A stretch of DNA of 64,000 nt from Phycisphaera sp. (GCA_016125285.1 WGMA01000018.1:1-64000), one strand, 5' to 3'; numbered from the stretch's first letter, positions 23,171 through 51,882 are shown. The notes: generated by a model from the letters alone, not told the origin. Program-made: numbers and translations.

Positions 23171-23330
23171 ATCTCGGATTTCGGATCTCGGATTTGCTGA
23201 CGCTTGTCGCGGACACAGTGAGGTAGGGCCACATGAAACGACGTCCTGAACAGAACGCACATTCGAATGCCGGCGGCGCGCCCGATTCGCGGAGCCCAAT
23301 CCGCAATTCGAAATCTGCAATCCCAAATCG
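23171..23330. repeat. Paired 7-bp-period repeat arrays around a gene start
   Basis: The left array at 23171-23197 consists of heptamers of the type GATTTCG/GATCTCG. The right array at 23296-23330 consists of heptamers in the opposite orientation (CCGCAAT, TCGAAAT, CTGCAAT, CCCAAAT). The core between them is 98 bases. The left array lies between the two genes of the module. The right one lies inside the DUF1501 gene and encodes residues of its N-terminal region just before the Tat motif. Confidence 0.8.
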
Positions 23331-45815: not shown

Positions 45816-46274
45816 ATGAGCACTCGACAGTTCTCAGTCATGGCGCCGGCCGAAGCGCAGTACCTCAAAGCGCTGCGGGGGTTCTTTCAGCCGATCCTCG
45901 AGGCCGAGTACCCCGAGAAGGGCAGCATGCTGGTGCTGGCGTTGGACGAGGCGTGCAGCAACGTCGTCAAGCACCGGCGCAACGCGCTGATGGAAGGCAT
46001 GGTGCACGTGCGGGCGACGATCGGCGGCGGGGCGATCCGCATCGAGATCGGCGACTTCTGCGGCACCGATGACATCCCGAACATCAAGCCGCGCGACCTG
46101 GCGGACGTCCGGCCCGGCGGGCTGGGCACGCACTTCATCGCCGAGATCATGGACAGCGTGTCGTTTCAGCCGGAACCGGGGTTCCCGGGACGCATGGCGC
46201 TGGTGTTGGAGAAGCGGACGGCCGGTACGGGCTCGCCCGCCAAGGACGAAGGGGCACAGGACGATGGCGATTAA
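45816..46274 (+). CDS. RsbW-like anti-sigma factor / serine protein kinase
   Basis: A 152-residue protein of the GHKL ATPase fold, as in RsbW and SpoIIAB. The N-box is seen in LALDEACSNVVKH at about residues 41-53, the G1 box in IEIGDFCG near 77 and the G2 loop in RPGGLGTHFI near 100. Such kinases bind a sigma factor or another target and phosphorylate a STAS-domain antagonist on serine. The STAS gene overlaps its 3' end by 11 bases, so the two are translated together. No sigma factor gene lies in this operon; instead mla genes follow. The target could therefore be the transporter or a distant sigma factor. Confidence 0.88.
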   Translation: MSTRQFSVMAPAEAQYLKALRGFFQPILEAEYPEKGSMLVLALDEACSNVVKHRRNALMEGMVHVRATIGGGAIRIEIGDFCGTDDIPNIKPRDLADVRPGGLGTHFIAEIMDSVSFQPEPGFPGRMALVLEKRTAGTGSPAKDEGAQDDGD

Positions 46275-46581
46275 AGTGGACACGCTCAACGAAGGCGGCG
46301 TGACGATCCTCAAGGTGACCGGCGAGGTCGACCTCGAGTCGTCGCCGGCGCTGCACGATCAGATCACGAAGCTGATCCGATCGGGTGTGCCGCTGAAGGT
46401 CGACCTGTCGGACGTGCCTTACATGGACTCCTCGGGCATTGCCGTGCTGACCCAGGGACTCAAGCTCTCGCAGCAGAAGGGCGTGGCGTACGCGCTGCTG
46501 AATCCCAGCACGCAGGTTCAGGCCGTGATTGACCTGGCCCTGCTGTCACAGCTGTTCACGATCGAACACACGGACGCGTGA
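46264..46581 (+). CDS. STAS-domain protein (anti-anti-sigma factor or MlaB-like)
   Basis: A 105-residue single-domain STAS protein. The phosphorylation loop reads VPYMDSSGIAVL at about residues 52-63 and keeps the serine that kinases of the SpoIIAB type modify. It overlaps the kinase gene upstream and ends one base before the mlaE start. In E. coli the STAS protein MlaB is a subunit of the MlaFEDB lipid transporter, so this protein could be MlaB-like, an RsbV-like antagonist, or both. The DSSG motif is closer to RsbV and SpoIIAA. Start ATG 46264 is the only sensible one for the domain. Confidence 0.9.
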   Translation: MAIKVDTLNEGGVTILKVTGEVDLESSPALHDQITKLIRSGVPLKVDLSDVPYMDSSGIAVLTQGLKLSQQKGVAYALLNPSTQVQAVIDLALLSQLFTIEHTDA

Positions 46582-46582
46582 C

Positions 46583-47437
46583 ATGGCCGGCGGCTCCATC
46601 AAATCCAGCCCGCTCAATCCGCTCGTGCTGTGTGGCAGCGTCGGTCGACGCGCGATCGGGTTTGCCGGTTCCCTCCGCGCAGGCCTCGAACACCTCGGCG
46701 GCATGTGGCGGATGTTCGTCTGGGCGATCTACTACTGCACCATCGGCCCGCTGACCGGCAAGTCCAAGCTGCGCGGCCAGCTGTTCCCGATGATGTCGAA
46801 CGTCGGCGTCAAGTCGTTTCCCATCGTCTTCCTCATCGCTGCGCTCATCGGGGCGATCCTTGTGCTGCAGACCGGCGACGTGCTCAAGAAGTACGGCCAG
46901 ATCAACGAAGCCCCGGGCGTCGTGGCGCTGTCGATGACGCTCGAGCTCGGTCCGCTGATGACCGCGGTGATCCTCGCGGCGCGCGTCGGCGCGTCCTTCA
47001 CCGCCGTGCTCGCGTCGATGAAGATCAATGACGAGCTGCTGGCGCTGGAGACGATGGCGATCCACCCCGTCGGCTACCTCGTCGCGCCGCGGTTCCTGAG
47101 CATGGTCATCATGGTGCCGTGCCTGACCGTCATGGCGTACCTCGTCGGCATGCTCGGTGGGTCGGTCGTGGCGTTCAGCAACTACGACATCCCCACGTCG
47201 ATCTACGTGCTCAAGACGACGTTCTACCTCGAGATGAAGCACATCCTCTCGGGCCTGATGAAGTCCGAGGTGTTCGGCGTCATCATCGCGATCGTCTGCT
47301 GCTACAACGGGTTCATCACGACGGGCGGCCCGATGGGCCTCGGCCGCAGCACGATGGTCGCGGTCGTGACCAGTCTCGTGCTGATCATCGTGGCGGACGC
47401 GATCCTCACCGCCGTCGTGATCAATTACATCCTCTAG
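46583..47437 (+). CDS. mlaE: MlaE family phospholipid ABC transporter permease
   Basis: A 284-residue integral membrane protein of the MlaE (DUF140) family, close to the usual 260. Five hydrophobic segments are visible from residue 75 on, including FPIVFLIAALIGAILVLQTG and TMVAVVTSLVLIIVADAIL. The family motif region LGPLMTAVILAARVGASFTA lies near 128 and is followed by ETMAIHPVGYLVAPRFLS. The first 50 residues hold the amphipathic interface helix. With MlaF and MlaD it moves phospholipids between the inner membrane and the periplasm. The ATG at 46583 follows the STAS stop by one base. Confidence 0.93.
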   Translation: MAGGSIKSSPLNPLVLCGSVGRRAIGFAGSLRAGLEHLGGMWRMFVWAIYYCTIGPLTGKSKLRGQLFPMMSNVGVKSFPIVFLIAALIGAILVLQTGDVLKKYGQINEAPGVVALSMTLELGPLMTAVILAARVGASFTAVLASMKINDELLALETMAIHPVGYLVAPRFLSMVIMVPCLTVMAYLVGMLGGSVVAFSNYDIPTSIYVLKTTFYLEMKHILSGLMKSEVFGVIIAIVCCYNGFITTGGPMGLGRSTMVAVVTSLVLIIVADAILTAVVINYIL

Positions 47438-47449
47438 CCGGAGCGCCGC

Positions 47450-48244
47450 GTGTCCGACATCATGATCGAGGTCGACAACGTCACCAAGAGCTTCGGCGAT
47501 TTCGTCGTGCTGCGCGGTGTGACGTGTCAGCTTCGGCGGGGCGAGACGATGTGCGTCCTGGGCGGGTCGGGCGGCGGCAAGTCCACGCTGCTGAAGATCA
47601 TGATCGGGGCGATCCGTCCGACGTCGGGGCGCGTGATCATCGACGGCGACGATATCAGCCGCATGCCCGAGGCGCAGCTCAACAAGGTGCGACGGAAGTT
47701 CGGCGTGATGTTCCAGGGCGGGGCGCTGCTGAACTCGATGACGGTCGGCGAGAACATCGCGCTGCCCCTGCACTACCACACGAAGCTCGACGCCGACACG
47801 ATCGGCACGATGGTGAAGATCAAGCTCCAGCAGGTCGACCTGCTGCACGCCGAACATCGACTGCCCGCGGAGCTGTCGGGCGGCATGCAGAAGCGCGCCG
47901 CGGTGGCGCGGGCGCTGGCGCTGGACCCGAAGATCCTGTTCTACGACGAGCCCTCGGCCGGCCTGGACCCGATCACCACCACCCGCGTCGACTTCCTGAT
48001 CAACAAGCTGCGCGACCGCATGCGGATGAGCAACGTCGTGGTCACGCACGTGATGGAGTCCGTGCAGCGGATCGCCGACCACATTGTTATGCTCGACAAG
48101 GGAAACGTGATCCTCGACGGCACGCTCGCGGACCTGATGGCCAGCGAGGACCCGCGGATCAGCACGTTCCGCACGGGCGAATACGCGGAGGGCGCCGAGG
48201 GCATCACGAGCACGGCGGACTATATGAAGGACCTGTTGATGTGA
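47450..48244 (+). CDS. mlaF: MlaF family ABC transporter ATPase
   Basis: A 264-residue ATPase. Walker A is GGSGGGKST at residues 38-46, the Q-loop lies in GVMFQGGALLNSMTVGEN, the signature is LSGGM at 142-146 and Walker B is FYDEP at 164-168, followed by SAGLDPIT. The LNSMTVGENIALPL segment and GLDPIT are typical of MlaF and distinguish it from other ATPases. It powers the MlaE permease from the cytosolic side. The start is GTG at 47450, 12 bases after the mlaE stop. A heptamer-repeat element overlaps its stop codon. Confidence 0.94.
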   Translation: MSDIMIEVDNVTKSFGDFVVLRGVTCQLRRGETMCVLGGSGGGKSTLLKIMIGAIRPTSGRVIIDGDDISRMPEAQLNKVRRKFGVMFQGGALLNSMTVGENIALPLHYHTKLDADTIGTMVKIKLQQVDLLHAEHRLPAELSGGMQKRAAVARALALDPKILFYDEPSAGLDPITTTRVDFLINKLRDRMRMSNVVVTHVMESVQRIADHIVMLDKGNVILDGTLADLMASEDPRISTFRTGEYAEGAEGITSTADYMKDLLM

Positions 48245-48350
48245 TTTTTGAATTTTGATTTTCGATTTTTGATTTCACGAGCACGCCGCGTCGCACGAGC
48301 CGCGATGCTCATATCAAAAATCAGAATTCTAAGATCAAAAATCGGAATAT
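48243..48350. repeat. Paired 7-bp-period repeat arrays between mlaF and mlaD
   Basis: The left array at 48243-48277 has five heptamers (GATTTTT, GAATTTT, GATTTTC, GATTTTT, GATTTCA) and begins at the mlaF stop codon. The right array at 48311-48350 has heptamers in the opposite orientation (for example AAATCAG, AGATCAA, AAATCGG). The core is 33 bases. The element fills the whole gap between the two genes and ends six bases before the mlaD ATG. Confidence 0.8.
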
Positions 48351-48355
48351 CGACC

Positions 48356-49609
48356 ATGACCGAATACCGAAAACACGAGATCGTGACCGGCCTGTTCATC
48401 CTCGCGGCGATCGGCGTCTTTGTGCTGTTCGCGTTCAAGGTCGGCAGCTTCGACCTGTCGCAGTACGTCGGCGGCGCCGGCGTGCACTGCGAGGCGTACT
48501 TCCGCAACATCCAGTCGCTCGAAGAGGGCACGCAGGTCGTGGTCGGCGGACGGCAGGTCGGGCGGGTCGCGTCGATCGAGCTGCTGCCCGCCGAGAAACT
48601 CGCCGAGCACGCCGACGAAGACGGCAAGATCCGCCCGATCGTCCGCGTGTCGTTCGACATCGACGATCCGCACGTCGTGATCAACCCCGCCAACGCCACC
48701 GTCATGCTCGCGCAGGACGGCCTGCTCGGCACGCACTACCTGTCGCTCGATCCGGGCTTCTGGGAGGGCGATTCGAAGCCGGTCGCGAACGTCGCGGGCA
48801 AGGAGCCGATGGTCATCCCCGTGACGACCGCGCCGGGTATGGACGCGCTGATGGCCGAGGCGACCGGCCTGCTGACCGACCTGCGCGGCACGCTTGCCGT
48901 GCTCTCCGAGCAACTCGAGAAGCCGAACCCCGATAACGCCACCGGCGCGATCGTCCTCAACGCGCGCGACACGCTGACCGAGTCGAAGAAGCTGCTCGCC
49001 CGCCTCAACGACCTGGCGAAGTCCGACAACCCCGAGGGCCTGCACGTCAAGATCATCAACCCGCTCGAAGAGCTGATCAAGACGACGGAGAAGGAACTCG
49101 TCGAGTTGTCGAAGCGCGTGCAGGAGAACACGCTGACCGAGGCCGAGAAGTTCCTCAAGGACGGGCAGGCGGCGCTGAAGGACGCGCAGGGCGCGGTGAC
49201 GGATGCGCGCAAGATGCTCGACGAGGGCAACCCGAAGATCCAGAAGATCCTCGCGAACCTCGAGAAGACGACCGGCGACCTCGACGGGTATCTCACGTCG
49301 ATGAAGGCGGACCTTACGAAGCTGCTCAACGACGCCGACACGCTGGTGACCAACACCGACGGGACGCTCGACGAGAACCGCACGGACATCCGCGAGACGA
49401 TCCGCCGGCTGCGTCGCACGATGTGGCAGGCGGAGATGGCGTTCCGCAAGGTGCGCGGCAACCCGGCGTACCTGCTGTTCGGCGACGACGAAACGGACCT
49501 CGAATCGCTGACGAGCGACGAGTCGGACTTCCGTTTCTCCGGCCGCGCCACGCCTTACCAGCAGCGCGACGAGGGCGACAAGGCCGCGGAAGGGGCGAAG
49601 AAGAAGTGA
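48356..49609 (+). CDS. mlaD: MlaD family (MCE domain) substrate-binding protein
   Basis: A 417-residue protein, much longer than E. coli MlaD (183 residues). An N-terminal membrane anchor (residues 9-30, GLFILAAIGVFVLFAFKVG) is followed by an MCE domain at about 35-130 (EGTQVVVGGRQVGRVASIEL, GLLGTHYLSLDPG). A long helical region at about 165-370 rich in Lys/Glu/Leu follows, then an acidic tail. The helical part may form a tunnel or tether across the periplasm, as in other long MCE proteins. The ATG at 48356 excludes 36 codons that would be read from a heptamer repeat. Its stop overlaps the next start. Confidence 0.92.
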   Translation: MTEYRKHEIVTGLFILAAIGVFVLFAFKVGSFDLSQYVGGAGVHCEAYFRNIQSLEEGTQVVVGGRQVGRVASIELLPAEKLAEHADEDGKIRPIVRVSFDIDDPHVVINPANATVMLAQDGLLGTHYLSLDPGFWEGDSKPVANVAGKEPMVIPVTTAPGMDALMAEATGLLTDLRGTLAVLSEQLEKPNPDNATGAIVLNARDTLTESKKLLARLNDLAKSDNPEGLHVKIINPLEELIKTTEKELVELSKRVQENTLTEAEKFLKDGQAALKDAQGAVTDARKMLDEGNPKIQKILANLEKTTGDLDGYLTSMKADLTKLLNDADTLVTNTDGTLDENRTDIRETIRRLRRTMWQAEMAFRKVRGNPAYLLFGDDETDLESLTSDESDFRFSGRATPYQQRDEGDKAAEGAKKK

Positions 49610-50553
49610 TGCGATTTCGGATTTCGGATTTCGGATTTCGGATCGTAGCCGTCGCCGCGGCGCTCGCGGTGACATTGCTTGCCGCGGGGTGTGCGCAGAA
49701 GACGATCACGCCGGTGGAGACGTCGTTCAACAAGGGCGTGTATCACCAGTCGAAGGGCAACTACGACGAGGCGATCGCGGAGTATCGTTCGGCGATTCAG
49801 GACGATCCGGCGGACTACCGGTCGCGATTCAACCTCGGCACGGCGCTGGAGGCGCGTGCGCTGGAGCACGCGGAGGCCGGTCGGCCGGACCAGGCGAAGG
49901 CGTTGCGGGCGCAGGCGGAGGCGGCTTACGCGTCGGTGTTGCAGCAGCAGCCGAGCAACGTGCGAGCGGCGGTGAACCTTGCGGCGCTGCGGTACGAGCG
50001 CGGCGACCGCGATGGGGCCAAGGCGCAGCTGCGCGAGATGATCGGCAAGCACGCCGACCTGGCGCTGCCGCGCAACGCGCTAGCGGCGTGGCTGCTGCGC
50101 GAGAGCGACACGTCGGGCGCGCTGTCGCTGCTCGAAGACGCGGCGCGGATCGAGCCGGCCAACCTGATGACGAACTACCTGCTCGGTGAGGCGCGGTGGA
50201 AGTCGGGCGACACGTCGGGCGCGCTCGCGGCGTTCGACAAGGCGCTGCTGCGTCAGCCCGACGACATCGCCACCCTGATGGCGCGCGGCAAGCTCAACGT
50301 TCAGATCAACGACCTCGTCGCCGCCCGCACGGACTTCCAGTCCGTGCTGTACGTCGACCCCGATCACCTCCAGGCCCACCACAATCTGGCGTCCGTGCTC
50401 GAAAAGCTCGGCGACCTCGAGGGCGCGGTCGGCCACACCTGGCGGGCGCGCGACCTGAGCGACGACCCGAAACAGGTCGCGGCGTACAACGCCAAGCTCG
50501 ATGAACTATACCGCCGCCTGCTCGACAAGCCGGCCGCGGCGTCGACCAAGTAA
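49609..50553 (+). CDS. TPR-repeat lipoprotein in the mla operon
   Basis: A 314-residue lipoprotein. The signal peptide ends in the lipobox LLAAGC (about residues 22-27). The mature part consists of TPR units from KGVYHQSKGNYDEAIAEYRS to AHHNLASVLEKLGDLEGAV. It is likely anchored in the inner or outer membrane and should bind protein partners. TGATG overlap with mlaD shows translational coupling, so it probably serves the lipid transporter. Oddity: residues 2-12 (RFRISDFGFRI) are encoded by a run of GATTTCG heptamers, so a repeat forms the n-region of the signal peptide. Confidence 0.85.
   Translation: MRFRISDFGFRIVAVAAALAVTLLAAGCAQKTITPVETSFNKGVYHQSKGNYDEAIAEYRSAIQDDPADYRSRFNLGTALEARALEHAEAGRPDQAKALRAQAEAAYASVLQQQPSNVRAAVNLAALRYERGDRDGAKAQLREMIGKHADLALPRNALAAWLLRESDTSGALSLLEDAARIEPANLMTNYLLGEARWKSGDTSGALAAFDKALLRQPDDIATLMARGKLNVQINDLVAARTDFQSVLYVDPDHLQAHHNLASVLEKLGDLEGAVGHTWRARDLSDDPKQVAAYNAKLDELYRRLLDKPAAASTK
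49613..49643. repeat. GATTTCG heptamer array inside a gene
   Basis: Four consecutive units of GATTTCG plus a fifth partial unit (GATCG). The array lies in frame at the 5' end of the TPR lipoprotein gene. Unlike the arrays at 23171 and 48243, no opposite arm is visible nearby. Confidence 0.88.
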
Positions 50554-50577
50554 ATCCAAGACTGAATCAAACGCGGA

Positions 50578-51882
50578 TCAATCGACGGTGACCGGCTGGC
50601 CGCACTCGATCAGCAGCAGGGTGATGTCGTCGTGCTGCTCGGCGGCGAGGGCGCTGATGGTCGAGACGATCGAGCGGAGCCGCTCCTTGGCGGGCAGGTG
50701 CGCTTTGTCCTTGACGACCTCGATGAGGCGTTCGACGGCGCGGTAGGGGTCGACGAGGTCGAGCGCCTCGGAGGCGCCGTCGGTGAACAGGTAGAGCGAG
50801 CCGCCGTCGGCGTTGACGCTGGTCTCGGGGAACACGAGGCCGGGCATGATGCCGATGGGTGGTGCGGCGGGAGGGACCTGTTCGAACGTGCCGTCGGGGC
50901 GGTGGATCAGCGCGGGCGGGTGTCCGGCGTTGGCCATGCGGACCTCGCCGGTGCGCGGATCGATGAATCCGGAGATGATCGTGATGAACATGCCCCGCGA
51001 CGTCGTGGCGTCGGCGATCTCGTCGTTGACGCGGCTGAGCAGCCGGCCGGGCGACGTCTCGCTCTTGGCTAGGTGGTGCAGGAGGCTGCACGCCTTGGCC
51101 ATCACCATCGCCGCGTTCATGCCCTTGCCCGACACGTCGGCGAGGTTGAAGTAGATGCGTCCGTCGGGCAGCGTGAAGTGGTCGTAGAAGTCGCCGGACA
51201 CCTCGCGCGCCGGGACGTTGATGCCGTGCACCATGCCGGGCTGCTCGCCGTCGGCTTCGGGGCGCGGGAGGAAGTCGAGCTGGATCTCGCGGGCGAGTTC
51301 GAGCTCCTTGCGGATGCGTTCCTTCTCGACGAGCTCGTCGGCCATCTGCGCGGTGCGGATCGCCAGCGCCGCCGCGGAGGCCAGCGCGGTGGTCAGGTGC
51401 TTGTCCTGATCGTCGAACATGCCGTCGGCGGTCTTCTTGTTGATGAGCTCGAGGGCGCCGATGCACTGGCTGCGCACGATCAGCGGGGCGCAGAGGACGG
51501 AGCGTGTGACGAAGCCGGTCTCGGAGTCGACGCCGCCGGTGAACGCCGCGTCGAGCTTGGCGTCGCGGACCATCTGCGTCTCGCGGGACTGCACGGTCTT
51601 GCCGACGATGCCCTCGGTGGCGCGGAGCTTGAGGCCGGTGATATCGACCGGGCCGGCGCACCCGTGGCACACCAGCAACGGCGTCTCGCCGGGCTCCAGC
51701 AGGAAGATCGACGCGGCCTCGGCGTCGAGGTACTCGAGAAACCGCTCCCCGGCCACCTGCAATGTTTCACGCACGTCGAGCGACTCGGCGAACGACTGCG
51801 TCAGCTCCGCCAGCAGTTCGAGCTGCTCGGAGAGGGGGCGCTGCGCCTTGTCGTCGAACATGTTGTCGAGGCTCGCGGTCAT
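50578..51882 (-). CDS. GAF-domain PP2C (RsbU/SpoIIE-type) serine phosphatase
   Basis: A 434-residue cytosolic protein. A GAF domain occupies about residues 20-185 (FLEYLDAEAASIFLLEPGE, SVLCAPLIVRSQCIGALELI). A helical linker contains KERIRKELELAREIQLDFLP. The PP2C domain runs from about 205 to the end, with metal-binding aspartates in SGDFYDHF, LADVSGKGMNAA, FTDGASEA and HDDITLLL. All expected motifs are present. Enzymes of this build dephosphorylate STAS proteins such as RsbV. It converges on the kinase/STAS/mla operon, its stop 25 bases from that of the TPR gene, so the STAS protein of that operon is the natural substrate. The ATG at 51882 is the only start consistent with the fold. Confidence 0.92.
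   Translation of the reverse strand: MTASLDNMFDDKAQRPLSEQLELLAELTQSFAESLDVRETLQVAGERFLEYLDAEAASIFLLEPGETPLLVCHGCAGPVDITGLKLRATEGIVGKTVQSRETQMVRDAKLDAAFTGGVDSETGFVTRSVLCAPLIVRSQCIGALELINKKTADGMFDDQDKHLTTALASAAALAIRTAQMADELVEKERIRKELELAREIQLDFLPRPEADGEQPGMVHGINVPAREVSGDFYDHFTLPDGRIYFNLADVSGKGMNAAMVMAKACSLLHHLAKSETSPGRLLSRVNDEIADATTSRGMFITIISGFIDPRTGEVRMANAGHPPALIHRPDGTFEQVPPAAPPIGIMPGLVFPETSVNADGGSLYLFTDGASEALDLVDPYRAVERLIEVVKDKAHLPAKERLRSIVSTISALAAEQHDDITLLLIECGQPVTVD

Follow-up and report, generated by a model that had tools for sequence, protein, structure and literature searches.

The window analyzed here, a stretch of 64,000 nucleotides (nt) of DNA from Phycisphaera sp. (GCA_016125285.1 WGMA01000018.1:1-64000) that belongs to a genome of 6.1 Mb in 90 contigs, carries between positions 45,816 and 51,882 a block of genes in which the components of a kinase/STAS/phosphatase partner switch are joined to those of an Mla-type lipid ATP-binding cassette (ABC) transporter. 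A preliminary description of this DNA had proposed that a kinase gene overlaps a STAS gene, that the latter abuts mlaE, mlaF, mlaD, and a TPR lipoprotein gene, and that a GAF-PP2C phosphatase gene converges on the end of this run. Each gene was found where it had been placed:

45816..46274, + strand: RsbW/SpoIIAB-type serine kinase (HATPase_c_2), 152 amino acids (aa); Pfam HATPase_c_2 62.3 bits, cut-off 27.4
46264..46581, + strand: STAS protein, 105 aa, predicted phospho-acceptor Ser56, proposed MlaB-type subunit; Pfam STAS 66 bits
46583..47437, + strand: mlaE, lipid ABC permease; Pfam MlaE 219 bits, TIGR00056 above cut-off
47450..48244, + strand: mlaF, ATPase, GTG start, C-terminal handshake helix ADYMKDLLM; best PDB chains are MlaF of MlaFEDB complexes
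48356..49609, + strand: MCE-domain protein (MlaD-type), 417 aa; Pfam MlaD 42.9 bits, cut-off 25.1
49609..50553, + strand: TPR lipoprotein, lipobox LAAGC, final gene of the run; TPR families
50578..51882, - strand: GAF + SpoIIE-type PP2C phosphatase, convergent (read from 51882 to 50578); Pfam SpoIIE 149.7 bits, GAF_2 49.4 bits

The kinase and STAS genes share 11 nt, mlaE begins 1 nt past the STAS stop codon, and the genes flanking the block belong to planctomycete-type families (PSCyt1/2/3, PSD1-5, DUF1501, DUF1552). We consider it quite likely that the STAS protein and the kinase, together with the phosphatase, form a phosphorylation switch that acts on the transporter by the full mechanism proposed below.

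The kinase combines a HATPase_c_2 domain with the N-box Glu/Asn pair (E45/N49), D80, and the glycine-rich lid (R99-PGGLG) of the RsbW/SpoIIAB kinases, all of them kept, and a profile of its family matches RsbW (6m36_A) at E 4.5e-21; against the RsbW anti-sigma equivalog it scores 34.5 bits, below the cut-off of 145. Among 45 mla-linked kinases, E45, N49, G101, G102, and G104 are invariant (45/45) and D80 is present in 40. The DSSG loop that the preliminary description had reported in the STAS protein is intact as D55-S56-S57-G58, and its candidate acceptor can be identified as Ser56 (codon TCC, 46429-46431), which aligns with T52 of Escherichia coli MlaB and whose equivalents we take to be S56 of RsbV and S58 of SpoIIAA. 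In an AlphaFold2 (AF2) model of the protein (two sequences; predicted local distance difference test score, pLDDT, 91.1), Ser56 begins helix 2. The structure closest to this model is RsbV (Z 18.7, root-mean-square deviation, rmsd, 1.4, 101 residues); the corresponding values are Z 13.6, rmsd 1.9, and 96 residues for Pseudomonas aeruginosa MlaB, and Z 12.1, rmsd 2.1, and 94 residues for E. coli MlaB. RsbV-type chains likewise outrank MlaB in a profile of the kinase-linked STAS proteins, which was built without E. coli MlaB because its inclusion would make matches to MlaB circular. The protein scores 76.6 against the TIGR00377 anti-sigma antagonist superfamily (cut-off 53.45), with S56 as the phosphorylatable serine. 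It is also, as expected of MlaB, a short STAS protein devoid of the final C-terminal helix, its last element in the AF2 model being a strand at residues 99-101; MlaB additionally lacks the fifth strand, whereas the window protein retains a short one. The best reading of these features is that the STAS gene may encode an RsbV-type protein in the place of MlaB, as a protein with two partners could look.

The transporter genes comprise an MlaE-family permease (TIGR00056, 215.8 against a cut-off of 212.2), an MCE-domain (MlaD) protein encoded alongside it, and an MlaF-type ATPase with the C-terminal handshake extension. Scores against the E. coli-type NCBIfam equivalogs all fall short of their cut-offs (in bits, MlaB 28.7/90, MlaD 61/135, MlaE 144/315, and MlaF 193/441), and the window's Mla proteins are relatives of the E. 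coli type from another subfamily. The MlaF tail, ADYMKDLLM (Y258, L262, L263), can be compared with GDYHADLLPGS of E. coli. Scored as an aromatic residue, any three residues, and two hydrophobics, the handshake motif occurs in 27 of 34 MlaF proteins whose neighbor is a separate STAS gene, versus 1 of 25 with no STAS or with one fused to MlaE (Fisher 4e-9; shuffling expectation approximately 0.1). The lone positive in the latter group matches in its core and not in its tail, and the seven misses in the former include two broken or gapped sequences and several in which leucine replaces the aromatic residue. Within the order of the window's genome, the tails YAEDLL or WEQDIL are also found in six MlaF proteins whose genes lie distant from the respective kinase-STAS-mlaE locus. 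The preliminary description would have been undermined by a STAS protein that makes no contact with MlaF; the extension through which E. coli MlaF touches MlaB is kept here and tracks a separate STAS gene, which, together with the gene order, points only indirectly to such contact. The window's genome (hereafter G000, with L numbers denoting regions fetched around matches) also encodes a lone second mlaE (G000:C63:213766-214392; L001, L003) beside two CBS-pair genes and an RNA methyltransferase-like gene, with neither mlaF nor an MCE gene in the 12 kb inspected around it.

The association of these genes extends well beyond a single genome. When the kinase was searched against 294 genomes of the phylum and the 40 best matches were retrieved with their surroundings, 34 of the 40 showed kinase, STAS, and mlaE in the same order on the same strand, an arrangement that random placement would produce for about 0.3% each. 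With further loci added, the kinase/STAS pair accompanies mla genes in 40 genomes from 16 family-level groups. The preliminary description had named confinement of this pairing to a single genome as a refutation; the linkage is not so confined, and it recurs in Pseudomonadota. A kinase tree, many of whose forks are unresolved, places 44 of the 45 mla-linked kinases on one side together with 11 others (8 unlinked and 3 near mla genes). Thirty weaker kinase matches were mostly phosphatase-kinase-STAS triads devoid of mla genes, which marks the mla-linked kinases as a sub-group. Switch and Mla genes are paired differently in family f28 (L098, L099, L100, L101, L104), where a divergent phosphatase-kinase-STAS triad lies about 2 kb from a (STAS)-mlaE-mlaF-mlaD-mlaD run and the STAS loop reads SSAG. 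A scan of viral contigs for relatives of STAS, MlaF, and the kinase yielded nothing usable.

The first relative outside the phylum was a metagenome-assembled genome labeled Legionellales (L025), in which phosphatase, kinase, STAS, mlaE, mlaF, mlaD, and an auxiliary lipoprotein gene run in one direction. A sample of 398 genomes of its phylum, the Pseudomonadota, added two loci with the same phosphatase-kinase-STAS-mlaE-mlaF-mlaD order (L149, L150), one in which a kinase at the contig end heads STAS-mlaE-mlaF-mlaD (L148), and one that reads kinase-STAS-mlaF-mlaE-mlaD-mlaC-phosphatase, in which the parts of the switch flank a canonical mlaFEDC operon on both sides (L152). At yet another locus (L161:5766-9616), a kinase domain is directly followed by STAS and mlaF, and mlaE is absent; this kinase domain terminates a much longer open frame of 887 aa, which suggests a sensor-kinase fusion. 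At least one further mlaE was found elsewhere in each of five Pseudomonadota genomes checked, which makes the switched copy an extra Mla system in these genomes. Linkage that survives the rearrangement of gene order is strong evidence of joint function, and its occurrence in at least two phyla suggests that phosphorylation turns the flow of lipids to the outer membrane on and off.

The phosphatase, composed of a GAF domain (residues ~36-175) and a phosphatase domain (239-426), carries the metal-binding aspartates of SpoIIE-type PP2C enzymes in the motifs GDFYD, DVSGKG, FTDG, and HDD. None of the 294 phylum genomes holds a match to it above 36% identity. It forms a fully supported clade with the phosphatases of L025 (54% identity over 410 aa), L149 (45%), L147 (44%), and L150 (42%), and those of L025, L149, and L150 lie directly upstream of kinase-STAS-mlaEFD. 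One phosphatase subtype thus adjoins one type of operon in two distinct layouts. In L147 (559-3561), phosphatase, kinase, and STAS of the mla-linked subtype are followed by a glutathione S-transferase-like gene and not by mlaE. Phylum relatives mostly have no phosphatase beside the operon, the exceptions (L063, L071, L090) being of other subtypes. Membership of the phosphatase in the system is therefore supported by kinship, its closest relatives being mostly mla-linked.

A serine occupies the phospho-site in all 45 STAS proteins flanked by a kinase and mlaE, and a serine or threonine in all eight separate STAS proteins that have no adjacent kinase, E. coli MlaB included; among eight STAS domains that are fused to MlaE and have no kinase, four have lost the serine. 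STAS domains linked to mla hence lose the site only when they are fused and no kinase stands beside them. The stronger proposition, that the serine is kept only in the company of a kinase, is ruled out by the eight kinase-less proteins.

These observations can be assembled into a mechanism in which the output of a partner switch is a transporter instead of a sigma factor. Unphosphorylated STAS would bind one MlaF at its helical subdomain and the neighboring MlaF at its C-terminal helix, thereby stabilizing the MlaF dimer on MlaE and allowing lipid movement. The same face of STAS would be bound by the RsbW-type kinase, which would phosphorylate Ser56, and kinase-bound or phosphorylated STAS would be excluded from MlaF, upon which transport would fall. 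A signal sensed by the GAF domain would lead the PP2C phosphatase to dephosphorylate STAS and return it to MlaF. Competition between kinase and MlaF for one STAS face is presumed by analogy with known complexes, and the sign of the switch is inferred from E. coli, where MlaB is required for MlaF to enter the complex, T52 lies at the center of the MlaF interface, the T52E substitution weakens MlaF binding, and T52A retains binding and leaves the transporter inactive (PMC7367683). Unphosphorylated STAS on MlaF would accordingly be the on state, and kinase-bound or phosphorylated STAS the off state. The idea from which the analysis set out, that STAS is an MlaB-type subunit switched by phosphorylation, gains good genomic support from the linkage and from the MlaF helix, and is refined in that the subunit is probably RsbV-type. 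We regard it as reasonably likely that, in a widespread class of Mla systems, an RsbW-type kinase and a PP2C phosphatase dedicated to the transporter gate it directly in this way through its STAS subunit, with the ABC transporter ATPase as output.

Several observations weigh against this mechanism. The STAS protein is nearer to RsbV than to MlaB in both sequence and fold. Three mla loci (L096, L097, L131) have a serine-bearing STAS and no adjacent kinase, and at L069 (4074-9696), where mlaE, mlaD, mlaF, STAS, kinase, and phosphatase form one run, MlaF has no handshake helix and ends with two CxxC motifs. The MlaF tree reduces the handshake-motif comparison to only 3-4 phylogenetically independent contrasts. 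An AF2 model of a kinase-STAS read-through chimera favors neither docking nor its absence (mean pLDDT 69.5; predicted template modeling score, pTM, 0.45). That T52A is bound and inactive implies a role of the site beyond simple on/off switching, and the sign may be subtler. Lastly, the existence of a separate mlaB had been named at the outset as a refutation. The outcome here is mixed: beside either mlaE of the genome, the only second STAS seen is of the SulP type; elsewhere, an orphan RsbV-like STAS gene with an intact DSSG loop (G000:C6:14691-14978; L004, L203) lies near a gene for a multi-pass membrane protein, and the stretch inspected around it holds no kinase and no mla genes. Its product could be a second target of the kinase or another partner of MlaF.

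The resemblance of STAS and kinase to RsbV and RsbW also lends itself to a more conventional account, namely that the pair regulates transcription elsewhere, by way of a sigma factor or some other regulator, and only shares its expression with the transporter, perhaps to report the state of the envelope. Phosphatase-kinase-STAS triads devoid of mla genes are common in the phylum, and the genome encodes several sigma factors, all of them below the SigBFG cut-off. However, a search for SigB/F/G-type sigma factors found none at E <=0.01 on the window's contig and none above the family cut-off in the genome, which bears out the earlier statement that no sigma factor gene is present and offers the sigma-factor reading no support. 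Furthermore, STAS stays beside mlaE or mlaF across several gene orders in two phyla, sits inside a canonical mlaFEDC operon in L152, and is tracked by the MlaF helix, all of which make control of transcription elsewhere quite unlikely.

A different possibility retains STAS as a transporter subunit and alters the switch, which would either run in reverse, with phospho-STAS as the active form, or operate without phosphate turnover, the kinase being a plain sequesterer. RsbW-type proteins serve also as binding partners, and the inactivity of the T52A transporter may mean that the site is needed for activity (PMC7367683). Against this stand the catalytic residues and phospho-site, kept without exception or nearly so, the repeated presence of a phosphatase gene with those of kinase and STAS, and the weakened MlaF binding of T52E, and we consider such a variant unlikely. 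That the neighborhood reflects chance or a purely local arrangement is highly improbable: the 34/40 linkage, the several gene orders in two phyla, and the overlapping and 1-nt-spaced genes refute it for kinase and STAS. It is conceivable for the phosphatase only, which is convergent, lies outside the operon, and adjoins it in few phylum relatives, and even there the mostly mla-linked closest relatives speak against it.

Additional features accompany the 3′ part of the run. Homologs of the TPR lipoprotein lie directly 3′ of mlaD in L056-L059, L061, L063, L064, L071, L096, and L097. Its first codons in the window (RISDFGFRI) coincide with a tandem repeat of the 7-nt unit GATTTCG at 49612-49640, far above chance, which occurs once more in the window (23176-23195); the real start of the lipoprotein may lie inside or past this repeat. 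The gap between mlaF and mlaD (48242-48347) holds an AT-rich imperfect palindrome with 49-nt arms that are 71% complementary and with strong folding as RNA (z -4.9). It has no match in an Rfam search and looks like an inserted repeat element.

The Mla transporter and the parts of the partner switch are each known, and their coupling is not described in the literature that was searched. No kinase-mla coupling came up in searches on Mla, STAS, RsbW, and partner switching, in agreement with the earlier impression of novelty, within a scope that left preprints and most subscription papers outside; a review of stand-alone STAS proteins makes no mention of Mla. No MlaB kinase is known in E. coli. 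How the levels of active MlaB are regulated was left open by the 2020 paper on MlaFB, which raised phosphorylation without experimental evidence (PMC7367683). The operons described here supply a candidate kinase and phosphatase beside the transporter genes and make this question testable with few proteins. Should the mechanism hold, partner switching would reach beyond transcription to control an ABC transporter directly, and the flux of outer-membrane lipids would be subject to fast, signal-driven control.

The locus can be compared with known systems. With E. coli MlaFEDB (PMC7367683; PMC5016091) it shares MlaE, MlaF, and MCE subunits, one small STAS gene, an MlaF C-terminal helix with an aromatic and two hydrophobic residues, and a Ser/Thr at the same STAS position, and it differs in having a kinase gene that overlaps the STAS gene, an adjoining GAF-PP2C phosphatase, an RsbV-like STAS, and a TPR lipoprotein instead of mlaC. 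With RsbV-RsbW-RsbU and SpoIIAA-SpoIIAB-SpoIIE it has in common the kinase family, the STAS phospho-serine, and a SpoIIE-type phosphatase with a sensor domain; here, by contrast, there is no sigma factor, the partner genes encode an ABC transporter, and MlaF possesses a helix for STAS contact. A further parallel is found in pairs of a STAS protein and a serine kinase that do not act on a classical sigma factor, such as SypA/SypE of Vibrio fischeri; the outputs described for them are regulatory, whereas the output proposed for the window is the ATPase of a lipid transporter (PMC10120452).

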